Source: Peteryoungia algae (lineage in GTDB: Bacteria > Pseudomonadota > Alphaproteobacteria > Rhizobiales > Rhizobiaceae). From it: a DNA stretch of 64,000 bases. Below the pieces are notes generated by a model. The model did not search any database and was not told where the DNA came from. It saw only the letters and a list, made by a program, of their open reading frames with translations. Of the stretch, positions 45,795 through 58,960 are shown piece by piece. Numbering within the stretch: the stretch's first letter is position 1; every line of letters begins with the position of its first letter. A program made the position numbers and the translations under genes. Location of the stretch: the NCBI RefSeq assembly GCF_030369675.1, contig NZ_CP128477.1, positions 3,676,501-3,740,500 of the forward strand, written 5' to 3'.

Positions 45795-46223
45795 TTACGG
45801 GTAGATCACGCCCTTGCGCAGGATGACATTGGCGTAGAGGCGCGGCTCTCCGGTCTGTACGACCGTATGGGCGGCCTTCACCCGGTTGTAGAAATCAGCG
45901 CCGATCAGGTTCGTGACGGGTACTGACGGCTCATGGCTTGCGCAGCAATCGATGATTTCCCGATGGACGGGGTCAACCTGGTCCGGCTTGCCGCCCACGA
46001 CGGAGCGGAAGATCGCTTCCGGTACAAAGTCGTCGATTGGCATCACGCTCAGGATCGCATTCAGCACGGGAACGAGCGCATGGCCATCAAGCCGCACGAG
46101 CCGTCTGGCGTGCTCCAGCGCCGGATAGTTGCCGTCGACGATGGCGATTTCGTCGCCGTGGCCCATGGCGCGCAGAGTGGCGAGAAGCTCGGGGCTCAGG
46201 AGGGGATCAATTCCCTTCAGCAT
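45795..46223 (-). CDS. RbsD/FucU-family sugar mutarotase
   Basis: A 142-residue protein. Family hallmarks are MLKGIDPLLSPELLATLRAMGHGDEIAIVDGNYP at the start (the H22/D30 region) and the C-terminal RLYANVILRKGV. It looks closer to FucU (L-fucose mutarotase) than to RbsD (ribose pyranase). These enzymes speed anomer or ring-form conversion before phosphorylation. Its start overlaps the ROK regulator stop by 17 bases, which ties it to the frc sugar locus. Confidence 0.88.
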   Translation of the reverse strand: MLKGIDPLLSPELLATLRAMGHGDEIAIVDGNYPALEHARRLVRLDGHALVPVLNAILSVMPIDDFVPEAIFRSVVGGKPDQVDPVHREIIDCCASHEPSVPVTNLIGADFYNRVKAAHTVVQTGEPRLYANVILRKGVIYP

Positions 46224-47451
46224 GGGTGGTATCCTTGAACAGCACGGTTTGATCGATCAGGTAGCGGTCGAAGATCGGCAGGCTGGCGCCGCCGATGGCG
46301 CGGGCCTGGGCGCCGACTTCGCCCTCGACGATGTCGGGAATGACGACGCCCTGCAGATCGAGACGGTTCATCGCCTCGATGGTCGCCCTGACCAGCCGAT
46401 GGCGCACCCAGGCGGGGAAGCCGCCGTCGATGATGGCTGCGGCAAAATCGATGATCGAGGCGGCGGCGATGATTGCCTGAGCAAGTGCGGCTGCCGTATC
46501 CTGCAGCCAGATCTCCAGCGGTTCACCGAAGTCGATCCAGTCCTCAGCCGCATACCACAGCGGCTGCGGATCGATGCCACGCTCGCGAAGCAGGTTTTCC
46601 AGCACGAAGATCGAGGCGATGTCGAGCAGCTGGCGCGTCTCGCCATGCTTGTCGCGAACGGGGAGGGGGCCGATGGCACCCGCCGTTCCCGTGCGCCCGA
46701 CGAAGAGCGCCGAATTCACGACGATGCCGCCGCCGATGAAGGAGCCGATGTAGAAATAAACGAAGTCGGGATAGCGCTGGCCGGCCCCGAAGACGAGTTC
46801 CGCACCGCAGGCGCTGGTGGCGTCGTTGCGCAGATAGACGGGATGCGACATCCGGGTCTGAACCTGGACCTGCAGGTCGACTTGTCGCCAGATGTCCATC
46901 GCGCCCTCGGGCGCGCCGACTTCTTCCGCCCAGTTCCACAATTCGAAGGGCGCAGCGATGCCGATACCGGCAATCCGCGTGCGCAAGGTCGTGTCCATGT
47001 CCGCTTCCATCTCGGCAATGCCGTCGCAGATGAAGGGCAGCAGATGATCCGGATGGGGGTAGCGATAGGTCCGGTGCCGCTGCTTGCGTATCTTGCCGGC
47101 AAAATCCATGAGCACGACGTCCGCGCTGCGGCGGCCGATCTTGACCCCGAAGGAAAAGGCGGCGTCCGGATTGATGAACATCGGCACGGAGGGTTGCCCG
47201 ACCCGGCCACGGATCGGTTCGCCGCGCATCAGCAGTTCGTCGCTTTCGAGCGAGCGCATGATGACCGAGACCGTCTGAGCGGAAAGTCCCGTCAGGCGGG
47301 CGATGTCGGCCTTGGAGCATCCCGGATTCTGCCGAACGAGCGACAGCACCAGCCGCTCGTTATAGGCGCGCACACGCACCTGGTTCGAGCCGCCGCCGGC
47401 ACTCACCCGGGGCGCCGGATCCGCCAGTCTTCCTTGATCATCTTGTGGCAC
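46207..47451 (-). CDS. frcR: ROK-family transcriptional regulator of the frc locus
   Basis: A 414-residue repressor-type ROK protein: a winged helix at about residues 25-85 (CSKADIARLTGLSAQTVSVIMRSL), then a sugar-kinase-fold domain. The kinase-like region keeps GIGIAAPF and a glycine-rich GSFIGGGIVV, but the usual CxCGxxGC zinc motif is not visible. GTG 47451 is preferred for its GGGAGGAG site; ATG 47505 would add 18 residues. It is divergent from frcB, the normal layout for a sugar-responsive repressor of the transporter. Confidence 0.88.
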   Translation of the reverse strand: MPQDDQGRLADPAPRVSAGGGSNQVRVRAYNERLVLSLVRQNPGCSKADIARLTGLSAQTVSVIMRSLESDELLMRGEPIRGRVGQPSVPMFINPDAAFSFGVKIGRRSADVVLMDFAGKIRKQRHRTYRYPHPDHLLPFICDGIAEMEADMDTTLRTRIAGIGIAAPFELWNWAEEVGAPEGAMDIWRQVDLQVQVQTRMSHPVYLRNDATSACGAELVFGAGQRYPDFVYFYIGSFIGGGIVVNSALFVGRTGTAGAIGPLPVRDKHGETRQLLDIASIFVLENLLRERGIDPQPLWYAAEDWIDFGEPLEIWLQDTAAALAQAIIAAASIIDFAAAIIDGGFPAWVRHRLVRATIEAMNRLDLQGVVIPDIVEGEVGAQARAIGGASLPIFDRYLIDQTVLFKDTTHAEGN

Positions 47452-47536
47452 TGAGGTCGCTCCTCCCGACCGCTTCCTTTTACGAAAGCCTCTGCAGGAT
47501 GTCACACTGATTTAATAATTCAACTGGATTTATTTA

Positions 47537-47566
47537 TTGACAGCCGAAATGTTCTGATGTTCTAAA
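47537..47566 (+). promoter_or_regulatory. candidate frcB promoter
   Basis: TTGACA at 47537-47542 followed after 18 bases by TCTAAA, about 115 bases before the frcB start. The surrounding 50 bases are AT-rich (TTTAATAATTCAACTGG, TTTATTTATTG), as expected for a ROK operator region. Confidence 0.4.
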
Positions 47567-47680
47567 TGGGGGCGTGGAGGAATGGGGGCCGACAGGCACC
47601 CGATCGGATTGCTAGGAGGCGATCCGTGCCGAAGCATTGCGGCCGGAGGAGCTGGCCGACACCATTCGGGAGGATACCAA

Positions 47681-48706
47681 ATGAAAAAGTCTCTGATTAC
47701 TGCTGCTCTCTCGGCCCTGGCCCTCGGCGTTGTCTTCGCCGCGCCGGTACAGGCCGCCGACGTTTCTGCATGCCTCATCACCAAGACCGACACCAACCCC
47801 TTCTTCGTCAAGATGAAGGAAGGCGCGACTGCCAAGGCCGCCGAACTCGGCGTGACCCTGAAGGCCTATGCCGGCAAGGTCGACGGAGACTCGGAGAGCC
47901 AGGTTGCGGCGATTGAAACCTGCATCGCCGACGGCGCCAAGGGCATCCTGCTCACCGCATCCGACACCAAGGGTATCGTTCCAGCCGTCCAGAAGGCCCG
48001 CGACGCAGGTCTGCTCGTCATCGCCCTCGACACGCCGCTGGAGCCGATTGACTCCGCTGACATGACCTTTGCCACCGACAACCTTCTCGCTGGCGAACTG
48101 ATCGGCAAATGGGCGGCAGCAACCCTCGGCGATGCCGCCAAGGACGCCAAGATCGCCTTCCTGAACCTCACGCCGTCGCAGCCGTCGGTCGACGTCCTGC
48201 GCAACCAGGGCTTCATGAAGGGCTTCGGCATCGACACGGTCGACATCAACAAGATCGGCGACGAAACCGATCCGCGCATCGTCGGCCACGATGTCACCAA
48301 CGGCAACGAAGAAGGCGGCCGGACCGCCATGGAAAACCTTCTCCAGAAGGATCCCTCCGTCAACGTTGTGCACACCATCAACGAACCGGCTGCTGCTGGC
48401 GCCTACGAAGCGCTGAAGGCTGTCGGCAAGGAAGGTGACGTGCTGATCGTCTCCGTCGACGGCGGTTGCCCGGGCGTCAAGAATGTCGCCGAAGGCGTCA
48501 TCGGTGCGACCTCGCAGCAGTATCCGCTGCTGATGGCATCGCTCGGCATCGAAGCGATCAAGAAGTTCGCAGACACCGGTGAAAAGCCCGCGGCCTCCGA
48601 AGGCAAGAACTTCTTCGACACGGGCGTCGCGCTCGTCACCGACAAGCCGGCTGCTGGCGTCGAGTCCATCGACACCAAGGCTGGCACGGACAAGTGCTGG
48701 GGCTGA
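47681..48706 (+). CDS. frcB: periplasmic sugar-binding protein FrcB
   Basis: A 341-residue ribose-type binding protein (PBP1 fold). The signal peptide is cleaved near VQAA-D (about residue 26). The mature start [20 protein letters not shown] is that of FrcB, the fructose/mannose/ribose receptor of Sinorhizobium. ATG 47681 has GGGAGGA upstream. It opens the frcBCAK operon; a strong hairpin after the stop probably protects its mRNA so that more FrcB than permease is made. Confidence 0.93.
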
Positions 48707-48734
48707 TCCCCGCCTTGCGCGCCTGAACTGCAGC

Positions 48735-48761
48735 ACTGGCGGATGGTCTCCATCCGCCAGT
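48735..48761 (+). promoter_or_regulatory. intercistronic hairpin between frcB and frcC
   Basis: A 12-bp perfect stem ACTGGCGGATGG / CCATCCGCCAGT with a 3-base loop, no T tract. The position, after a binding-protein gene and before its permease, is typical of 3'-stabilising or partial-termination hairpins. Confidence 0.7.
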
Positions 48762-48848
48762 CGGCTGATCGCCCGGCCTTGTGCGCAGCCATGTCCGGCG
48801 TATCCTTCACGGAATGACAAAAATCGACAACGGCAGGGAGGATGACTC

Positions 48849-49931
48849 ATGCAGCCGGCCAATCCCGAAACGCGAAATCCGCAGGAATTCGAGAAGGTCC
48901 TCTCGGGCAGTTCCACCCAGGTCGCGTCTTTCGACAGACACGAGCGCACGGCAATGGAGCGCTTCCAGCATTTTCTTCATTCAAGCCCCGCAGCCGTCGC
49001 CCTGATCGTGCTGGTCCTGTCGGTTGCGGCCTTCGGCTTCATTCTCGGCGACAAGTTCTTCTCGGCCTTCACATTGACGCTGATCCTTCAGCAGGTCGCG
49101 ATCGTCGGCATCGTCGGTGCCGCCCAGACATTGGTGATCCTGACCGCCGGCATCGATCTGTCGGTTGGCGCGATCATGGTTCTGTCGTCGGTGGTCATGG
49201 GCCAGTTTGCCTTTCGCTACGGCCTGCCACCCGAACTGGCCGTGATCTGTGGTCTGGCCGTCGGGGCCTTCTGCGGCTTTATCAACGGCGTGCTCGTGGC
49301 GCGCATGAAGCTGCCGCCCTTCATCGTGACGCTCGGCATGTGGCAGATCGTGCTCGCCACCAACTTCCTCTATTCCGCCAACGAGACGATCCGCAGCCAG
49401 GATATCGACGCCAATGCGCCGATCCTCAAGTTCTTCGGCGAAAACATCCGCATGGGCGGTGCCGTGCTGACCTATGGCGTCATTGCCATGGTGCTTCTGG
49501 TTGCGGTCCTCTGGTATGTGCTCAATCACACTGCCTGGGGCAGGCACGTCTACGCGGTCGGCGACGATCCGGACGCGGCGGAACTCGCAGGTGTCAACGT
49601 CAAGCGCATGCTGATCTCCGTCTACACGCTGTCGGGCCTCATCTGTGCACTCGCCGGCTGGGCACTCATCGGCCGCATCGGTTCGGTCTCCCCGACCGCT
49701 GGCCAGTTCGCCAACATCGAATCCATCACGGCGGTGGTCATCGGCGGCATCTCGCTCTTCGGCGGACGCGGCTCGGTCCTCGGCATGATTTTCGGGGCGC
49801 TGATCGTCGGTGTCTTCCAGCTCGGTCTGCGCCTGATCGGTACGGACCCGCAATGGACCTATCTCTTGATCGGCGTTCTCATCATCGCCGCCGTCGCAAT
49901 CGACCAGTGGATCAGAAAGGTAGCAGGCTGA
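48849..49931 (+). CDS. frcC: sugar ABC transporter permease FrcC
   Basis: A 360-residue BPD_transp_2 permease with about nine or ten TM helices starting near residue 45 and a polar N-terminus. Family motifs are LILQQVAIVGIVGAAQTLVILTAGIDLSVGA and NGVLVARMKLPPFIVTLG. It ends in TGATG, overlapping the frcA start by one base. It forms the channel of the FrcBCA importer as a homodimer. Confidence 0.94.
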   Translation: MQPANPETRNPQEFEKVLSGSSTQVASFDRHERTAMERFQHFLHSSPAAVALIVLVLSVAAFGFILGDKFFSAFTLTLILQQVAIVGIVGAAQTLVILTAGIDLSVGAIMVLSSVVMGQFAFRYGLPPELAVICGLAVGAFCGFINGVLVARMKLPPFIVTLGMWQIVLATNFLYSANETIRSQDIDANAPILKFFGENIRMGGAVLTYGVIAMVLLVAVLWYVLNHTAWGRHVYAVGDDPDAAELAGVNVKRMLISVYTLSGLICALAGWALIGRIGSVSPTAGQFANIESITAVVIGGISLFGGRGSVLGMIFGALIVGVFQLGLRLIGTDPQWTYLLIGVLIIAAVAIDQWIRKVAG

Positions 49932-50713
49932 TGACCCAGGAACCCATTCTCACCGCCCGCGGTCTGGTCAAGCGTTACGGCCGCGTCACGGCCCTCGATC
50001 AGGCCGATTTCGACCTCTATCCGGGCGAAATCCTCGCCGTCATCGGCGACAACGGTGCCGGAAAGTCCTCGCTGATCAAGGCGATCTCCGGTGCTGTCAC
50101 GCCTGATGAGGGCGAGATCAAGCTCGAGGGCCGAGCGATCAACTTCCGCTCGCCGATCGAGGCGCGCAAGGCCGGTATCGAGACCGTCTACCAGAACCTT
50201 GCTCTGTCGCCGGCCCTTTCGATCGCCGATAACATGTTCCTCGGTCGCGAACTGCGCAAACCGGGCATCATGGGCTCGGTCTTCCGCAAGCTTGACCGGC
50301 CGGCGATGGAGAAGATCGCGCGCGACAAGCTCTCCGAACTCGGCTTGATGACCATCCAGAACATCAACCAGGCGGTGGAGACGCTGTCGGGCGGCCAGCG
50401 CCAGGGTGTGGCGGTCGCGCGTGCGGCGGCCTTCGGTTCCAAGGTGATCATCCTCGACGAACCGACGGCGGCGCTCGGCGTCAAGGAAAGCCGCAAGGTG
50501 CTGGAGCTGATCCTCGACGTGCGCTCACGCGGTATGCCCATCGTGCTGATTTCCCACAACATGCCGCATGTCTTCGAAGTGGCCGACCGCATCCATGTCC
50601 ACCGCCTGGGCAAACGGCTCTGCGTGATCAATCCGAAGGACTACACCATGTCGGATGCCGTGGCCTTCATGACAGGAGCGCGTCCGGCGCCGGACACCGA
50701 ACTTGCTGCATGA
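49931..50713 (+). CDS. frcA: sugar ABC transporter ATP-binding protein FrcA
   Basis: A 260-residue single-domain ABC ATPase. Walker A is GDNGAGKSS (39-47), the signature is LSGGQRQGVAVARA and Walker B is VIILDEPTAAL. Most ribose-type systems use a two-domain RbsA; this short, single-domain form is the Frc type. The start is ATG 49931; the longer open frame reaching back to 48842 runs through frcC in another frame and is not coding there. Confidence 0.94.
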   Translation: MTQEPILTARGLVKRYGRVTALDQADFDLYPGEILAVIGDNGAGKSSLIKAISGAVTPDEGEIKLEGRAINFRSPIEARKAGIETVYQNLALSPALSIADNMFLGRELRKPGIMGSVFRKLDRPAMEKIARDKLSELGLMTIQNINQAVETLSGGQRQGVAVARAAAFGSKVIILDEPTAALGVKESRKVLELILDVRSRGMPIVLISHNMPHVFEVADRIHVHRLGKRLCVINPKDYTMSDAVAFMTGARPAPDTELAA

Positions 50714-51333
50714 GTTCAGAACTCGACGATCTTCTGTTTGAAATCGAGCGGCGGGCGCATGGTGGCGCCCGCTTGCTCGTCGGCGTTGCCGGACCTCCCG
50801 GCGCCGGAAAGTCGACGCTTGCGGATCGCCTGCATGCAGCCCTCGGCGAAAGAGGCCATCGCAGCGCCGTGCTGCCGATGGACGGCTTCCACCTCGACAA
50901 TTCCATTCTCGACGAACGCGGCGATCTTGCCCGCAAGGGTGCGCCGCACACATTCGACGTGCGTGGACTTGCCGATCTGCTTCGCGCGGTGAAGGCAGGC
51001 GGCGAAGTCTTCGTGCCGGTCTTTGACCGCGCCCGGGAGCTTGCGATCGCGGCGGCCCGTTGCATTTCGCCAGAGGATCGCATCGTGATCGCCGAAGGCA
51101 ATTACCTGCTGCTTGATCAGGGGCCGTGGGCAGACCTCGCCGATCTCTTCGACCTGTCCGTCATGGTGGCGCCGCCGATCGAGGAACTGGAGCGGCGGCT
51201 CATTGCCCGATGGGTTGGCTACGGTCTCACTCCGGCACAGATCGAAGCGAAAGTCGAAAACAACGATCTGCCCAATGGCAGGCTCGTGCTGCAACGCAGC
51301 CGTCCGGCCGATTTCACTTTCGACCAGTTCTGA
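50710..51333 (+). CDS. frcK: P-loop sugar/nucleoside kinase-like protein FrcK
   Basis: A 207-residue uridine-kinase-type P-loop protein: Walker A GVAGPPGAGKST (about residues 25-36), PMDGFHLDN (the substrate-binding loop) and VIAEGNYLLLD. ATG overlaps the frcA stop (ATGA). In Sinorhizobium meliloti the same gene closes the frc operon and was proposed as a sugar kinase; biochemical proof is limited. It is the last gene before the signalling module. Confidence 0.9.
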   Translation: MSSELDDLLFEIERRAHGGARLLVGVAGPPGAGKSTLADRLHAALGERGHRSAVLPMDGFHLDNSILDERGDLARKGAPHTFDVRGLADLLRAVKAGGEVFVPVFDRARELAIAAARCISPEDRIVIAEGNYLLLDQGPWADLADLFDLSVMVAPPIEELERRLIARWVGYGLTPAQIEAKVENNDLPNGRLVLQRSRPADFTFDQF

Positions 51334-51534: not shown

Positions 51535-51930
51535 ATGGCGGTATTGATTGTCGAGGACAACCCGACCAATGCGATGATCATAAAGCACCTCGCCAAGAAG
51601 GTGACGTCCAAGGAGATCAAGGTCGCCGGCGATGGAAACACGGCATTGATGCTGTGCCATACGGAAAGCTTCGAAATTCTGATCGTCGATTACCAGTTGC
51701 CCGGCATGTCCGGGCTGCAGTTCGTCAAGGCCGTGCGCCTGATGGATCGCTACTGCGACACTCCCGTGGTGATGGTGACGGCAGACGATCAACCGCGTCT
51801 GTGTGAGGAAGCCAAGGCCGCGGGTGTCACGGATTTCCTCCGCAAGCCGGTCGAGGCTGTCGCTTTCCGCAAGTTGCTGGCCGATCATCTCGGCGCCGAG
51901 GCCGTCCATCCCGAACTCCGTTCGGCGTAA
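51535..51930 (+). CDS. single-domain response regulator
   Basis: A 131-residue CheY/DivK-like receiver with no output domain. It has the acidic pair E7/D8 (VEDN), phospho-acceptor D52 (VDYQLPG), switch Thr (VTADD) and Lys (RKPVE). ATG 51535 follows AAAGGGTGAAGG; the frame is open back to 51406 without support. Its VDYQLPG resembles IDYQMPV in the HD-GYP regulator 3.2 kb downstream, so both may take phosphate from the same hybrid kinase. Confidence 0.9.
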   Translation: MAVLIVEDNPTNAMIIKHLAKKVTSKEIKVAGDGNTALMLCHTESFEILIVDYQLPGMSGLQFVKAVRLMDRYCDTPVVMVTADDQPRLCEEAKAAGVTDFLRKPVEAVAFRKLLADHLGAEAVHPELRSA

Positions 51931-51947
51931 GAAGGGAAACATCGGTC

Positions 51948-52442
51948 ATGAGAAGCTTTGTAGGCGCACTTCTCGCAAGCCTGATCAGCGCCACCTCCGT
52001 TCCTGCGCTGGACGCGCCGACCGGCCCGGTCGTGCTGACCGTGAAGGGTGAGATCTCCAATACGAATGCGGGTGATACGGCGCAGTTCGACCTGGCGATG
52101 CTGGACGGTCTGAAGCATCGCAAGGCCGAGATGGAAACACCCTGGACGGAAGGCAAGGTGACCTTCGAAGGCCCACTGCTGCGCGAGATCCTCACCGCCG
52201 TCGGCGCGACAGGCACGATCCTCAAGGTACGCGCGCTCAACGACTACGCGGCAGACGTGCCGGCCGACGACGCCAGGCTCCAGACGATCCTCGCCACGAA
52301 ACTCGACGGAAAGCTGATGTCGGTGCGGGACAAGGGGCCCCTGATGCTGGTCTATCCCTTCGACCTCGATGCTGACCTCTACAACGAGAAATACTTCTCG
52401 CGCTCTGTCTGGCAGATCAAGGAAATCGAGGTCGGCCGGTGA
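51948..52442 (+). CDS. secreted protein resembling the molybdopterin-oxidoreductase (SUOX) fold, without cysteine
   Basis: A 164-residue protein with a signal peptide cleaved near VPALD-A (about residue 21). The rest resembles small proteins annotated as oxidoreductase molybdopterin-binding domain (LTVKGEISNTN start, VRALNDYAADVP, MSVRDKGPLMLVYPFD, SVWQIKEIEV end). There is no cysteine at all, so the usual Mo-ligating residue is missing and catalysis is unlikely. Its stop overlaps the hybrid kinase start (GTGA). I infer a periplasmic ligand-binding partner for that kinase. Confidence 0.8.
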   Translation: MRSFVGALLASLISATSVPALDAPTGPVVLTVKGEISNTNAGDTAQFDLAMLDGLKHRKAEMETPWTEGKVTFEGPLLREILTAVGATGTILKVRALNDYAADVPADDARLQTILATKLDGKLMSVRDKGPLMLVYPFDLDADLYNEKYFSRSVWQIKEIEVGR

Positions 52443-54706
52443 CCATGACGCGCGCCACAGCACGGAAATTTGCAGGCGGAGGCACGATTGCCATCGTCCT
52501 GCAGACGCTTTCGGCTGTGCTTGTCTTCGTGCTGCTCATCCTGTTCGTCGACATTGCCCGCCAGTATCGCATTATGGAAGATGGCGTGCGGGAAAACTCG
52601 CTCTGGTCTGTCTACCAGCTGGATCGGGAAGTGCGCCAGCTGACTCACAGCCTCTCGAATATGCGTGACGAAGAGCAGAACCCGAAATTGCTCGACGAGC
52701 TATCGCTGCGCTACGATATTCTCTTCTCCCGCGTTTCCATCCTCGACCAGGCAAAGTTCGGCACCTACTTCTCCGGTGACGAGAAGATCAACGGCTACAT
52801 CGCCGGCATCACCGAGGGCGTCCGCGCCGCACAGCCGATATTCGATGCGTATGCCGCCGGCACCCCGCCGACGCAGGAGCAGTTGCGTTGGCTCGAAACA
52901 GATCTTGCCGGCATGGGGCGTGTGGCCGAGGACTTCCTTCTTTACACCAATACGCGCGTCAGCCATGAGCGGGCGGACAGCCGGGCGACGATCCTCAACC
53001 TGGAGCGCACCTCGACGGTCATGCTGGCGCTCCTGATGGTCTCGGTCGTGTTCCTCGTCATCATCCTGAACCGCCAGCTCCGTTCGGTGCGTCGGTCGAG
53101 CCATGACTTGCAGGTGATGGCGACGCAGCTGAGCGAGGCTTATGAAGGCGCCGACGCCGGAAACCGCGCCAAATCTCAATTCATGGCGACCATGGGTCAC
53201 GAGATCCGGACGCCGCTGAACGCGATCCTCGGCATGTCGGAACTGCTCGAGCTCTCAGACCTTCCCGATGACGCGATCCAGAGCGTCAAGACGATCCGCT
53301 CCTCGGGCGAGGCACTGCTTGAGATCATCAACGAGATCCTCGACTTCTCCAAGATCGAGCATGGCAAGCTGGAACTGGAAGAGCGTGCCTTCGACGTCTG
53401 CGCGCTTGCGGAAAGCAGTGTCAGCATTATCAGAGGTCGTGCCGACGACCACGGCAATACGGTGATCCTGGACCTTCCGGACTCTCTGCATGCCCTCTAC
53501 GTCAAGACAGACCCGACGCGCCTGAGGCAGGTTCTTTTGAACCTGCTATCGAATGCGGTGAAGTTCACCCAGCAGGGAACCGTCACGTTGCGCCTGCGCG
53601 ACTTCTATCGCGAAGGCAAGCTGATGATCCGCTTCGAGGTGGAGGACACCGGCATCGGCATTGACGAGGCGGGTCTCGACAAGCTCTTCAAGCCCTTCTC
53701 GCAGGTCGATGCCTCGATCAGCCGCCGCTACGGTGGCACCGGTCTTGGCCTCACCATCTGCAAGCAGATCGTCGAGATCCTCGGCGGCGAACTCGGTATG
53801 AGCAGCACCGTCGGCGTCGGCTCCATCTTCTGGTTCGAACTGGCAGTTGTTCCCGTGACCCGCCTGGAGGCGAATGGTCTCGCCGCCCAGGTGGTGGCCG
53901 AGGAGACCCTGCCGCGTCGCCGCATCCTTCTGGTGGAAGACAACAAGGTCAACCAGATCGTTGCCACCCGCTTCCTGGCCCGGCTCGGGCAGGACGTGGA
54001 GATCGCCAATGACGGCGCCGAAGCCGTCTCCCTTTCCCGCGAACAGGCCTTCGATCTGATCCTGATGGATATGCAGATGCCCGTCATGGACGGCATCGAG
54101 GCGACGAAGCGGATCATTGCCGAAGGCGGCCCCTCGGCCGAAGCGCCGATTATCGCGATGACCGCCAACGCATCGGACGACGACCGCCGCCGCTGCCTCG
54201 ACGCTGGAATGAAAGGCTTCGAGTCCAAGCCTGTGACATTGGAGAGATTGCGAAAGATGATTGCTCACGCCACGTCGACGGATCGCGAAACCAGGCCGGT
54301 CCCGGTCCCGGCGCCGACGACTGCGCCCCAGAAACTGGAATTGCCGGACCTGGATCTTGCCGCCATGCCACTTCAGTCCATGCCAGAGCTCGGCATTGAG
54401 GGGTTGGACGAGGCGCGCCACGCCGAACTCGTCGACGCGCTTGGCGAAGATGTCTTCCAGGAACTGGTCGAATCCTTCTTCGACGATGCGACCGGCCTGC
54501 TCGATGAGCTGACCGAGGCGCTCCACCGGAACGATCCGGACAAGATCGACCGCGTTCTGCACACGATCAAGGGGGCAGCCTCCAATGTCGGGTTCAACGA
54601 CCTGGCGGTGAAGGCGAATGCGCTCAGGAGCCAGACCCCGGCGCCTGAAGATATCGAATTGCTCGGCGAGGAAATCCTCGCGCTTAAATTTAAACTGGTT
54701 GCCTGA
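52439..54706 (+). CDS. hybrid sensor histidine kinase with receiver and HPt domains
   Basis: A 755-residue tripartite kinase. TM1 is at about residues 16-39, a mostly helical periplasmic domain at 40-190, and TM2 at about 192-211. The phospho-acceptor is H254 (MGHEIRTPLN), followed by an ATPase domain (NLLSNAVKFT, EDTGIGID, GGTGLGLTICKQ), a receiver (about 495-615, DLILMDMQMPVMDG) and a C-terminal HPt domain (HTIKGAASNVGF). GTG 52439 overlaps the upstream stop; ATG 52445 is an alternative. It should drive a four-step phosphorelay to a separate receiver. Confidence 0.92.
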   Translation: MTMTRATARKFAGGGTIAIVLQTLSAVLVFVLLILFVDIARQYRIMEDGVRENSLWSVYQLDREVRQLTHSLSNMRDEEQNPKLLDELSLRYDILFSRVSILDQAKFGTYFSGDEKINGYIAGITEGVRAAQPIFDAYAAGTPPTQEQLRWLETDLAGMGRVAEDFLLYTNTRVSHERADSRATILNLERTSTVMLALLMVSVVFLVIILNRQLRSVRRSSHDLQVMATQLSEAYEGADAGNRAKSQFMATMGHEIRTPLNAILGMSELLELSDLPDDAIQSVKTIRSSGEALLEIINEILDFSKIEHGKLELEERAFDVCALAESSVSIIRGRADDHGNTVILDLPDSLHALYVKTDPTRLRQVLLNLLSNAVKFTQQGTVTLRLRDFYREGKLMIRFEVEDTGIGIDEAGLDKLFKPFSQVDASISRRYGGTGLGLTICKQIVEILGGELGMSSTVGVGSIFWFELAVVPVTRLEANGLAAQVVAEETLPRRRILLVEDNKVNQIVATRFLARLGQDVEIANDGAEAVSLSREQAFDLILMDMQMPVMDGIEATKRIIAEGGPSAEAPIIAMTANASDDDRRRCLDAGMKGFESKPVTLERLRKMIAHATSTDRETRPVPVPAPTTAPQKLELPDLDLAAMPLQSMPELGIEGLDEARHAELVDALGEDVFQELVESFFDDATGLLDELTEALHRNDPDKIDRVLHTIKGAASNVGFNDLAVKANALRSQTPAPEDIELLGEEILALKFKLVA

Positions 54707-54723
54707 GAAGCAAGGAGGCGTTC

Positions 54724-55809
54724 ATGCGTATTTTGTTGGTGGACGACAACAGCACCAATCTGAAGCTCCTGACGAAACTCGTCGGCAAGCTCGACAACTG
54801 CGAGGCTCTGCCATTCGCGAGCCCCGACGCCGTGCTCTCCGCATTGCCGGAGCTTGAGTTCGACATTGCCATCATCGATTACCAGATGCCGGTCTATAAC
54901 GGTGTCGAGCTCTACACGGAAATCGTGCGCTTCGAGAAGTATGCCGATGTTCCCGTTGTTTTCGTCACGGCCGACAAAGACATGACGACCCGCATGGCCG
55001 CTCTCAACGCCGGTGCGATCGACTTCCTGACCAAGCCGGTGAACCCTGTCGAGTTCCAGGCCCGCGTCCAGAATATCGTGAGCCTTTCAAGGGCTCGCCG
55101 CCAGCTCGCCGATCAGGCCGAATGGCTGCGGCGCGAGGTCGAACGTGCGGTGGGTGAACTGCGCGAGCGCGAGCAGGAGATTATCCATCGCCTGACGCTG
55201 GCCGCTGAGTACAAGGATCCCGAAACCGCTCGCCATACCCTGCGCGTCGCGGCCTATTCGGAAGCGATCGCGATTGAACTGGGTCTGCCGAGCCATGTCT
55301 GCCACGATATCCGGCTGGCGGCCCCGATGCACGACATTGGCAAGGTCGCGATGCCAGACACTGTTCTTCTCAAACAGGGCCGATTGACGGAAGCCGAATA
55401 TCGCCAGATGCAGTCGCATGCCGAAATCGGCAGCGACATCCTCGGACGCTCCCGTTCGTCGCTTCTGCAGCTCGCCTCCGAGATTGCCGCCAGCCACCAC
55501 GAGCGCTGGGACGGGCAAGGCTATCCGAACCGTCTCGTCGGCACGGCCATCCCGATCTCCGGGCGGATCGTCTGCATCGCGGACAACTTCGATGCCCTGA
55601 CGACAGAACGCCCTTACAAGCCGGCCTGGAGCTTCGAGCGTACGGTCGAGCATATTCTCGGCCGTGCCGGCACCCAGTTCGATCCGGACTGCGTGGCTGC
55701 CTTCGAGCGCGCGCTGCCTCGCATTCGGGCGATCTTGGAACAGGACCGGCGCGAGCAGGCGGAAGAGGCAGAAAAGGCCGTGGGATCGGCAAGCGATCGG
55801 GTCGCCTGA
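54724..55809 (+). CDS. response regulator with HD-GYP phosphodiesterase domain
   Basis: A 361-residue RpfG-like protein. The receiver (1-120) has D52; a short coiled coil (about 121-150) leads to an HD-GYP domain with HDIGK (203-207), HHE (258-260) and DGQGYP (263-268). All metal-binding residues appear intact, so it probably degrades cyclic-di-GMP. It starts 17 bases after the hybrid kinase gene and is its likely output, linking a periplasmic signal to motility/biofilm choice. Confidence 0.93.
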   Translation: MRILLVDDNSTNLKLLTKLVGKLDNCEALPFASPDAVLSALPELEFDIAIIDYQMPVYNGVELYTEIVRFEKYADVPVVFVTADKDMTTRMAALNAGAIDFLTKPVNPVEFQARVQNIVSLSRARRQLADQAEWLRREVERAVGELREREQEIIHRLTLAAEYKDPETARHTLRVAAYSEAIAIELGLPSHVCHDIRLAAPMHDIGKVAMPDTVLLKQGRLTEAEYRQMQSHAEIGSDILGRSRSSLLQLASEIAASHHERWDGQGYPNRLVGTAIPISGRIVCIADNFDALTTERPYKPAWSFERTVEHILGRAGTQFDPDCVAAFERALPRIRAILEQDRREQAEEAEKAVGSASDRVA

Positions 55810-55874
55810 TCCTTTGATCCCCGTGGGTGGACATGCTAAGGGCGGCGAGTACTCGTCAAGCCGGAGGCCTATTC

Positions 55875-56912
55875 ATGTCATCGCTCATCATCCGCCGCCC
55901 CGACGACTGGCACCTGCATCTGCGCGACGGCGCCATGCTGGAAGGCGTGATCGGCGATACCAGCCGACATTTCGCCCGCGCCATCATCATGCCGAACCTC
56001 GTGCCGCCGGTGGTGACGACGCAGGACGCACGCGCCTATCGCGAGCGCATCCTCAAGGCAGTGCCTTCAGGCGACCGTTTCGAACCGCTGATGACGCTCT
56101 ATCTGACCGAGCACACAAACCCTGACGACGTGGAAGAAGGCAAGCGTTCCGGCCTGATCACGGCCGTCAAGCTTTACCCCGCCGGTGCCACGACCAATTC
56201 CCACGGCGGTGTACGCGACATGGACAAGGCCATGCCGGTGCTGGAGCGGATGGCGAAGATCGGCCTGCCGCTTTGCGTCCATGGCGAAGTGACGACGCCC
56301 GAAGTTGACATTTTCGACCGCGAGAAGGTCTTCATCGACACCGTCCTCGATCCGCTGCGCAAGCGTCTCCCGGAGCTGAAGGTCACCATGGAGCATGTGA
56401 CGACCGAAGATGGCGTTCAGTATATCCGCAGCGCCGATCGCAACCTCGCGGGCTCGATCACCACGCATCACCTGATCATCAACCGCAACGACATTCTCGT
56501 CGGCGGTATTCAGCCGCACTACTATTGCCTGCCGGTCGCCAAGCGCGAGAACCATCGCCAGGCGCTGCGCAAGGCGGCCGCTTCAGGCGATGCCCGCTTC
56601 TTCCTCGGCACCGACAGCGCGCCGCATGTCGATCCGCTGAAGGAATGCGGCTGCGGTTGCGCCGGCATCTATACCTCGATCAACACCATGAGCTGCCTTG
56701 CCCATGTCTTCGAGCAGGAAGACGCTCTGGACAAGCTCGAGGCCTTCACCTCGCTGAACGGCCCCGCCTGGTATGGCCTGGCGCCGAATGAGGAGACGAT
56801 CACGCTCGTGAAACGGGATCAATCGGTGACGTTCCCGCCGAAGATCGTCACCGGCGCTGGTCCGGTGACCGTCTTTAATCCGAAATTCCCACTGCACTGG
56901 GATGTTGCCTGA
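55875..56912 (+). CDS. pyrC: dihydroorotase PyrC (class II)
   Basis: A 345-residue zinc amidohydrolase that closes carbamoyl-aspartate to dihydroorotate in pyrimidine synthesis. Metal ligands H13 and H15 (DWHLHLRDG) and the carboxylated lysine K99 (VKLYPAG) are present, as is the TDSAPH motif. ATG 55875 has CCGGAGG upstream; the open frame to 55827 is unsupported. pyrE follows on the same strand after a terminator and a small antisense-oriented gene. Confidence 0.96.
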
Positions 56913-56918
56913 TGCGCC

Positions 56919-56948
56919 AAAGGCCTCGTGCGGGTGCACGAGGCCTTT
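56919..56948. terminator. hairpin terminator after pyrC
   Basis: A perfect 13-bp stem AAAGGCCTCGTGC / GCACGAGGCCTTT with a 4-base loop. It ends in TTT and also serves the convergent DUF3096 gene. Confidence 0.82.
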
Positions 56949-56981
56949 GATGTGGCCGATCTGGACGCGTTGTCCGTCCGA

Positions 56982-57137
56982 TCAGGTGCCGAGCGAGCCA
57001 AGCTGCGGCCAGAGACCGAGCACGCCGATTATGATCAGATAAATGGCAACGACATAATTGAGCAGGCGCGGCATGATCAGGATCAGGATGCCGGCGATGA
57101 GGGCGACAAGCGGCTGGATGACGAGCATGTTGTCCAT
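56982..57137 (-). CDS. DUF3096 family small membrane protein
   Basis: A 51-residue protein, MDNMLVIQPLVALIAGILI..., with two closely spaced hydrophobic helices (about residues 5-22 and 27-43) and a short polar end. I recognise the DUF3096 pattern (QPLVALIAGILILIMPRLLNY). Function is unknown. ATG 57137 is preceded by AAGGAAT on the minus strand. It lies in the gap between pyrC and pyrE on the opposite strand. Confidence 0.82.
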   Translation of the reverse strand: MDNMLVIQPLVALIAGILILIMPRLLNYVVAIYLIIIGVLGLWPQLGSLGT

Positions 57138-57263
57138 GGGTTATTCCTTCGTGTGTGGCCAGCCGTAAAGATCTGGCGAAGCGGATTGTTCCACACGGTT
57201 GATCTGGCGGGCGGCACGGCTTGCTGCTATTGCGCTTCTGACCGTATCTGACAGGAGAGCCCC

Positions 57264-57956
57264 ATGATCCAGACCCCCTTCACCGACCCCGCCGTGATGG
57301 CCGACCTCGTGGCGAAGATGCTCTGGGAGATCAAGGCGGTGCATTTCAACGCCAGCGAGCCCTACAAGCTTTCCTCGGGCATGAAGAGCCCTGTCTATAT
57401 CGACTGCCGCAAGCTTCTCTCCTATCCGCGCGTGCGCTCCGCGGTGATGGATTTTGCCGCCGCCACCCTGATGCGCAATGCCGGCTTCGAGCAGTTCGAT
57501 TGCATCGCCGGCGGCGAGACGGCCGGCATTCCGTTTGCGGCTCTGCTCGCCGATCGCCTCGGCCTGCCGATGATTTATGTCCGCAAGGCGCCCAAGGGCC
57601 ATGGCCGCAATGCACAGATTGAAGGCAACATGCCGGAGGGATCGCGCGTTCTCGTCATAGAGGACCTGACAACCGCTGGCGGCAGCATGTTCAAGTTTAT
57701 CGACGCGATCAGGGTTGCCGGCGGCGTCGTCGATCACGGCATCGCGCTCTTCTTCTACGGCATCTTCCCCGAGGCCCAGCAGCGCTTCGACAATGGCAAG
57801 GTGAAGTTGCACTACATCGCGACATGGCGGAACGTGCTCGCCGTTGCTCGCGAGCAGAAACTGTTCGACGAGAAGACGCTCTCCGAGGTCGAGGCCTTCC
57901 TCGATGCACCGCTCGAATGGTCGGGACGGAACGGTGGGGTTTCGTCATTGGCCTGA
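57264..57956 (+). CDS. pyrE: orotate phosphoribosyltransferase PyrE
   Basis: A 230-residue type I PRTase converting orotate and PRPP to OMP. The PRPP motif [13 protein letters not shown] covers about residues 129-141, and the dimer-loop [15 protein letters not shown] (about 107-121) is present. The predicted product of PyrC, after oxidation, is its substrate. It is followed 77 bases later by a fructokinase gene, as in Sinorhizobium. Confidence 0.96.
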
Positions 57957-58033
57957 GCAAATGCTCGCCGGCGCACTGGAAATCGAGCGCGACTTGGTTT
58001 AAATCGATTGAAACGGAAGACTGGGAGGTCGAA

Positions 58034-58960
58034 ATGATCCTGTGTTGCGGCGAAGCGCTGATCGACATGTTGCCACGCGAAACCACGCTCGGCGAGCGGG
58101 CCTTTTCGCCCTATGCCGGCGGCGCGATTTTCAACACGGCGATTGCCCTTGGGCGCCTCGGCATCGAGACGGGCTTCTTCACCGGCCTTTCCGACGACAT
58201 GCTGGGCGACATCCTGCGCGACACGCTGAAATCATCCGGCGTCGATTACAGCTATTGCGCGACGCTTTCGCGCCCCTGCACGATCGCGCTGGTCAAGCTC
58301 ACCAACGGCCAGGCATCCTATGCCTTCTACGACGAAAACACGGCAGGCCGGATGATCACGGAAGCCGACTTGCCCGCGCTCGACGACAGCTGCGAAGCCC
58401 TGCATTTTGGCGCGATCAGCCTGATCCCGGAACCTTGCGGCTCGACCTATGAGGCGCTGATGACCCGCGAGCACAAGACCCGCGTCATCTCGCTCGACCC
58501 GAACATCCGCCCCGGATTCATCAAGGACAAGGCTGCCCACCAGGCCCGCATCGCCCGCATGGCCGACATGTCCGACATCCTGAAATTCTCCGACGAGGAC
58601 CTCGACTGGTTCGAGCTGTCGGGCACGCAGGACGAACGCGCCGCCTATTGGCTGACGCGCGGCGCCAAGCTCGTGGTGCTGACCAAGGGCGCGGAAGGGG
58701 CGACAGGCTACACCGCAAACTTCAAGGTCTCGGTTCCCTCGAACAAGGTCGAGGTGGTCGATACCGTCGGCGCCGGCGACACTTTCGACGCGGGCATCCT
58801 CGCCTCGCTGAAGCGTCAGGGATTGCTGACCAAGGACAAGGTCGCGACGCTCTCGGAAGAGGCGGTGCGGGAGGCGCTGACGGTAGGCGCCAAGGCTGCG
58901 GCCGTGACGGTGTCGCGGGCAGGGGCCAACCCACCAACGGCGGCCGAGATCGGGTTCTAA
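58034..58960 (+). CDS. frk: PfkB-family fructokinase
   Basis: A 308-residue sugar kinase. It begins MILCCGEALIDMLPRE, has the first PfkB signature region YAGGAIFNTAIALGRLG (about residues 27-43), and the C-terminal DTVGAGDTFDAGIL with the catalytic Asp. This form, next to pyrE, is the rhizobial fructokinase. ATG 58034 has GGGAGG five bases upstream; the frame is open back to 57824 inside pyrE. It would phosphorylate fructose brought in by FrcBCA, and pgi 2 kb away continues the route. Confidence 0.9.
   Translation: MILCCGEALIDMLPRETTLGERAFSPYAGGAIFNTAIALGRLGIETGFFTGLSDDMLGDILRDTLKSSGVDYSYCATLSRPCTIALVKLTNGQASYAFYDENTAGRMITEADLPALDDSCEALHFGAISLIPEPCGSTYEALMTREHKTRVISLDPNIRPGFIKDKAAHQARIARMADMSDILKFSDEDLDWFELSGTQDERAAYWLTRGAKLVVLTKGAEGATGYTANFKVSVPSNKVEVVDTVGAGDTFDAGILASLKRQGLLTKDKVATLSEEAVREALTVGAKAAAVTVSRAGANPPTAAEIGF

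Follow-up and report, generated by a model that had tools for sequence, protein, structure and literature searches.

A PruR–hybrid kinase gene pair with a linked REC-HD-GYP regulator in Peteryoungia algae

The four genes and their products

Four genes lie head to tail on the + strand between positions 51535 and 55809 of the window (the whole stretch of 64,000 nucleotides from Peteryoungia algae that was analysed). ORF and Pfam analysis bears out the original prediction of this arrangement: the genes encode a receiver, a cysteine-free protein of 164 residues, an HK-REC-HPt kinase and a REC-HD-GYP protein (Table 1). The Pfam domains are, gene by gene, Response_reg; Oxidored_molyb (marginal); HisKA, HATPase_c, Response_reg and Hpt; Response_reg and HD_5. 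Gaps of 17 nt separate the first gene from the second and the third from the fourth, and the second and third overlap by 4 nt (GTGA), so that the genes look like one transcription unit. The predicted overlap between the stop codon of the 164-residue protein and the start of the kinase is thus confirmed, given the GTG start on which it hinges (an in-frame ATG at 52445 being a possible alternative start); with mechanical start calls, pruR and the kinase gene overlap by 4 nt in 57 of the 81 distinct loci in which an HD-GYP gene is linked to the pair (HD-linked loci).

As read by eye, the upstream segment (46207-51333) carries a minus-strand ROK-type regulator gene, then genes for a periplasmic sugar-binding protein, a permease, an ATPase and a small kinase-like protein, a set that we take to resemble the rhizobial frcR-frcBCAK fructose uptake set. 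The downstream segment (55827-58960), also read by eye, carries dihydroorotase-like (pyrC), orotate phosphoribosyltransferase-like (pyrE) and sugar-kinase-like genes.

Table 1. Features of the four-gene locus, with positions in the window
Feature	Position	Strand	Basis
Stand-alone receiver (free REC), 131 aa	51535..51930	+	ATG 51535; PF00072 5e-22
PruR homologue, putative exported pterin-binding protein, 164 aa	51948..52442	+	PDB 7RKB, 7KOS; site residues
DTB-type hybrid kinase, 755 aa, GTG start: TM, WX7E helical periplasmic domain, TM, HisKA, HATPase, REC, HPt	52439..54706	+	Pfam, TIGR02956, model
Kinase residues 40-188 (approximate): predicted periplasmic sensor domain, helical bundle	52556..53002	+	Hydropathy, AlphaFold2 model, DcpA-type matches
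REC-HD-GYP response regulator, 361 aa, predicted c-di-GMP phosphodiesterase	54724..55809	+	PF13487 4.6e-36; solved chain PDB 4MCW 1.3e-51

By every sequence test made, the 164-residue protein is a PruR. Its PDB matches include the 'Pterin Binding Protein' chains 7RKB (E 2.9e-41) and 7KOS (4.5e-38), and also 7KOM (1.9e-19) and 7KP2 (3.6e-19); according to a 2026 review, 7KOS is the PruR of A. tumefaciens and 7KP2 that of V. cholerae (PMC13259868). The same text describes PruR as a protein without the Mo-ligating cysteine, whose site is likely too small for Moco and which binds small pterins, tetrahydromonapterin being preferred. The pterin site includes Trp160, Tyr104 and Asn102 (A. tumefaciens numbering); the Trp is mostly conserved, the Tyr is sometimes Phe and the Asn sometimes Asp (PMC13259868). 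Residues N98, Y100 and W155 of the window protein are the counterparts of Asn102, Tyr104 and Trp160, with a spacing that agrees with the PDB alignment, and their columns are invariant across the 12 rows of our PruR alignment, A1 (the rows of A1, like those of the kinase alignment A2, were hand-picked from the fetched loci). Homology and these site residues suggest that the window PruR binds a pterin.

The protein contains no cysteine at all, as originally stated; a cysteine is found somewhere in the PruR domain at 22 of the 81 distinct HD-linked loci. The reading as a SUOX-family molybdoenzyme is rejected in view of the absent Mo-ligand cysteine and the strong match to PruR, the Oxidored_molyb match being marginal (24.1 bits for a cut-off of 24). 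As far as a reading of its N-terminus by eye can show, where it is hydrophobic, the protein is likely exported. It has 164 residues; PruR proteins with their secretion signal have about 170. The earlier proposal that a cysteine-free protein with a SUOX-like fold serves the kinase as a periplasmic ligand receptor is supported, since it matches the PruR literature (PMC13259868). The proposal did not name the ligand, which is likely a reduced pterin. Among the matches listed, the nearest named relative is from Rhizobium rhizophilum (L055, 89%).

A candidate contributor to ligand synthesis is a reductase gene at about 386455-387210 of G000:C1, whose product carries the TGX3RXG and YX3K motifs (28 out of 37 SDR places were searched for TGX3RXG) and matches PDB 5TGD, 'FolM', at 2.3e-88. 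This reductase is likely PruA-like; the assignment is not settled, because the best NCBIfam model, NF006597 (364 bits, cut-off 281), is named only 'SDR family oxidoreductase' and the score against the 'pteridine reductase' model (175.6) is below the cut-off of 288.

The kinase has two hydrophobic segments, at about residues 11-46 and 188-217, and the region between them is all helical in the AlphaFold2 model (pLDDT 83.8). Its motifs comprise the HisKA histidine H254, the receiver motif MDMQMP and the HPt histidine H708; pattern searches recovered HPt in 58 and HisKA in 72 of the 81 linked kinases. The WX7E signature, which marks DcpA-type periplasmic domains (PMC13259868), corresponds to W56-E64. 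Both residues are unchanged throughout the 24 kinases of A2, and 76 of the 81 distinct HD-linked kinases carry the signature close to their N-terminus (it is absent in L013, L127, L128, L133 and L207). The profile of the periplasmic domain also matches ahead of GGDEF in six of the 22 PruR-DGC/DcpA loci of the drawn set described below (L272, L303, L313, L316, L320 and L325), and in a weak pairwise match (E 0.002) the W and E of the window domain are aligned with those of the L018 DcpA. The best model for the kinase is TIGR02956 (TorS); its 424.9 bits fall below the equivalog cut-off of 676.5, hence a TorS-like core rather than TorS itself. In two of the surveyed records (L060 and L119), the kinase ORF is in two pieces.

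The fold matches of the kinase sensor domain include, by their titles, QseG-QseE and XylFII-LytS, in which helical sensor domains of kinases were solved together with an accessory envelope or binding protein. These accessory proteins are unrelated to PruR, however, and a helical-bundle fold match is not diagnostic. The WX7E signature and the coupling of the two genes suggest that PruR contacts the kinase. As PruR adjoins a kinase with a DcpA-type WX7E domain and a TorS-like core, the pair is, as judged from sequence, a PruR-DTB (DcpA-TorS-BaeS kinase) system, a class already in print (PMC13259868).

The fourth protein retains both motifs of its HD-GYP domain, HDIGK and HHERWDGQGYP, as read from the sequence, and would, as a predicted phosphodiesterase, lower c-di-GMP. 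Among the 81 linked relatives, the strict HHE..DG.GYP motif is found in 74 and HD.GK in 70; in the seven that miss the strict motif, three end in GYG and three have no HH match. The GYG form occurs in L123, L127 and L128 (Loktanella, Yoonia), and the activity of these proteins may differ.

HD-GYP genes beside PruR-kinase pairs

PF00174 is too weak for PruR, and we therefore used the A1 profile in its place; the PF00174 search of the Peteryoungia genome led to another locus only. This genome has one PruR match, making the operon the sole PruR system found there, and HD-GYP occurs at three loci (four hits). Given these numbers, and as the arrangement recurs in other species, the linkage between PruR and HD-GYP is more than chance.

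The recurrence was established on 236 PruR loci, fetched as three partly overlapping sets (near, named and drawn), of which 229 gave a usable PruR domain, 223 of them distinct. The link to a kinase gene, for which a neighbourhood survey had been suggested, recurs across these loci. In the near set, 14 of 17 loci have a PruR-kinase pair, with HD-GYP on the 3' side in 13. The named set holds the best 80 of at least 530 confirmed candidates and leans to the query's clade; in it, HD-GYP adjoins the pair, on either side, in 71 of 80 loci (including the contig-cut L096). Three of the nine others (L066, L077 and L084) are cut by contig ends and six (L101, L114, L120, L121, L122 and L125) are not so explained. 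L085 and L100, also of the named set, have PruR and overlapping ORFs. The record of L125, which is titled Verrucomicrobia, shows 56% identity to the query and two tandem PruR-kinase pairs.

For the drawn set, 385 genomes were sampled at class level and 398 at phylum level, every place at E<=1.1e-20 being kept. Its 139 loci comprise 97 PruR-kinase loci, 22 PruR-DGC/DcpA loci, 16 without a recognised partner and four that were unscored, probably on account of overlapping ORFs (L198, L227, L252 and L287). Among the 97 PruR-kinase loci, nine of which have less than 1.5 kb on the 3' side, the neighbour is HD-GYP in five and EAL in seven (four on the same strand, three converging), and none was scored in 49. 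As a control, HD-GYP was found in none of the 22 drawn PruR-DGC/DcpA loci.

An order-wide draw of 297 genomes, with six candidates scored per genome, showed PruR in 80 genomes, with 101 places in all (E<=1e-20), and HD-GYP relatives in 50 genomes, with 64 places (E<=1e-50). For 17 PruR places, an HD-GYP homologue in the same orientation lies no more than 2.3 kb away; it is on the 5' side in 15 cases and on the 3' side in two, namely in the window and in G963. The three remaining pairs on a shared contig are more than 1.5 Mb apart. Six genomes have both genes at non-adjacent places.

Other neighbours were seen as well. A scan of ten neighbours from the drawn set returned LuxR-, NtrC-, SpoIIE- and REC-HPt-type regulators among them. 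A REC-EAL or EAL protein, i.e. a second kind of c-di-GMP phosphodiesterase, adjoins the PruR-kinase pair in L266, L311, L312, L220, L274, L276 and L282; in L274, L276 and L282 the EAL gene runs in the opposite direction, and L266, L311 and L312 share one genus code. A REC-DUF3369-HD-GYP protein, which has a different HD-GYP architecture, is encoded downstream of the pair in L199 and L207. Response regulators of NtrC or SpoIIE type adjoin the pairs of L196, L247 and L206, which makes the output of the receptor seem exchangeable. Since other loci carry a regulator of the EAL, LuxR, NtrC or SpoIIE type, or no regulator at all, HD-GYP is one of several outputs.

A proposed phosphorelay towards HD-GYP and the place of the free receiver

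We consider it probable that the locus is a PruR-DTB operon with its own c-di-GMP output, working as follows. Exported PruR would bind a reduced pterin, which may be tetrahydromonapterin, with the PruA-like reductase contributing to its synthesis, and loaded PruR would touch the helical WX7E domain in the periplasm and so shift the balance between kinase and phosphatase. Phosphate would pass from His254 to the receiver Asp, to the HPt His708 and on to the receiver of the HD-GYP phosphodiesterase, bringing c-di-GMP down, and the free receiver would compete for the HPt phosphate as a sink or a branch. The domains and the gene linkage are what suggest the relay from HPt to HD-GYP; in A. tumefaciens, pterin-loaded PruR favours c-di-GMP breakdown (PMC13259868).

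The main output of a genuine PruR-kinase pair could also be another regulator encoded elsewhere, for instance a DNA-binding one, with HD-GYP as a neighbour that shares the promoter and receives no phosphate from the kinase. We regard this as unlikely. It would account for the LuxR-, NtrC- and SpoIIE-type regulators, or none, beside pairs in other lineages, and for the similar HD-GYP relatives that occur without PruR (E<=1e-20) in 27 of the 297 order genomes. The adjacency itself, however, is persistent. On a tree of the 223 distinct PruR domains (quick IQ-TREE, simple model), there is a minimum of 12 changes in the HD-GYP link and of 5 in its side, and two genomes carry duplicate modules (L011/L012 and L013/L014) in which every PruR-kinase pair has its own HD-GYP. 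Adjacency that survives side changes and duplication argues for a joint function. Moreover, all 89 HD-GYP domains found in the 236 loci lie within 1.5 kb of PruR or a kinase-related domain, and the fetched stretches hold none beyond that distance.

The phospho-acceptor region of the free receiver, IVDYQLPG, is intact. In its own genome, the free receiver scores best, itself apart, against the receiver of the HD-GYP protein (60.2 bits, 34%); next come a match at 522322 (50.8) and the kinase receiver (48.0). The same kinship holds in 27 of the 28 loci compared, where, of the HD-GYP and kinase receivers, the former is the nearer to the free receiver; on a FastTree receiver tree, the free receivers form one group (1 change), and free and HD-GYP receivers together require 2 changes. 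Of the 236 loci, 37 (32 of them distinct) encode a free receiver immediately 5' of pruR. The distinct ones comprise 31 of the 70 distinct loci with a 3' HD-GYP, none of the 11 with a 5' HD-GYP, and the contig-cut L066. These data fit a receiver derived from that of the HD-GYP protein and competing with it for the same HPt; its role as a sink is a suggestion. Together, the conserved gene linkage and the kinship between free and HD-GYP receivers favour a flow of phosphate to these two proteins.

Alternatively, the free receiver could be the chief output, as a CheY- or DivK-like adaptor, and HD-GYP a side branch. Its place as first gene of the operon and its intact acceptor motif speak for such a role, which we nevertheless hold to be quite improbable: the free receiver is not essential, since 39 of the 70 distinct loci that share the gene order lack it, and it is absent from all those with a 5' HD-GYP, whereas HD-GYP adjoins the pair in most named loci (71 of the best 80 of at least 530). 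That the 164-residue protein is, in spite of its PruR features, a redox enzyme or molybdopterin carrier and not a receptor is scarcely credible, as the marginal Oxidored_molyb match stands against the lack of any cysteine, the far stronger match to solved PruR chains, the retention of the Trp, Tyr and Asn, and a site which in PruR has no Mo ligand and is likely too small for Moco (PMC13259868).

Known PruR systems and the meaning of the module

The locus shares with published PruR-DTB systems a pruR gene directly before a DcpA-type WX7E kinase gene, a TorS-like core and a receiver domain, which that class allows (PMC13259868). That class being in print, the sensor subunit built on a re-purposed enzyme fold is not new; PruR-DcpA and PruR-DTB have both been published (PMC13259868). 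The PruR-DTB systems of the review, however, are two-gene operons, whereas the present one counts four genes and includes an HPt domain as well as a REC-HD-GYP regulator and a free receiver. The review calls DTB kinases widespread and, in the sections used here, names no target for them; its text does not contain the terms 'response regulator', 'HPt', 'phosphotransfer' or 'phosphorelay', and 'HD-GYP' appears once, in a general sentence (PMC13259868). Of the papers listed in the literature searches, the review alone was seen to treat PruR-DTB (PMC13259868), and the texts consulted gave no description of a PruR-kinase-HD-GYP module; the primary papers (PNAS 2024, mBio 2015 and J Bacteriol 2020) may report the linkage.

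Two other systems bear comparison. PruR-DcpA of A. tumefaciens has in common with the window a PruR-type receptor, the pterin-site residues, a periplasmic WX7E domain and an expected breakdown of c-di-GMP; DcpA has its own GGDEF-EAL, whereas in the window the c-di-GMP enzyme is a regulator of its own, to which the signal presumably passes by phosphorelay. Xanthomonas RpfC-RpfG resembles the window by its domains, a hybrid HK-REC-HPt kinase with a cognate REC-HD-GYP protein, RpfG, that hydrolyses c-di-GMP (PMC5391125). By contrast, RpfC itself binds the fatty acid DSF (PMC5391125), and the likely sensor in the window is a separate exported protein predicted to bind a pterin.

The four genes represent a module that is real and conserved, a PruR-DTB variant to which an HD-GYP output has been added. 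Its gene linkage is observed; the ligand, the direction of the response and the phosphotransfer are what we infer. There is about an even chance, in our view, that PruR has been wired separately to c-di-GMP breakdown in several ways: through fused DcpA (GGDEF-EAL), through a kinase with REC-EAL, and through a kinase with an RpfG-like REC-HD-GYP protein, from whose receiver a free receiver that acts as phosphate sink seems to have arisen. If this is true, periplasmic pterin would be a general input to c-di-GMP turnover, and the operon would be of a DTB type with a named output. The conserved HD-GYP neighbour (EAL elsewhere) offers a concrete, testable output for DTB kinases, which would place the fused and the phosphorelay branches of PruR signalling on c-di-GMP alike and would show how one pterin receptor has been retained through a swap of its output.
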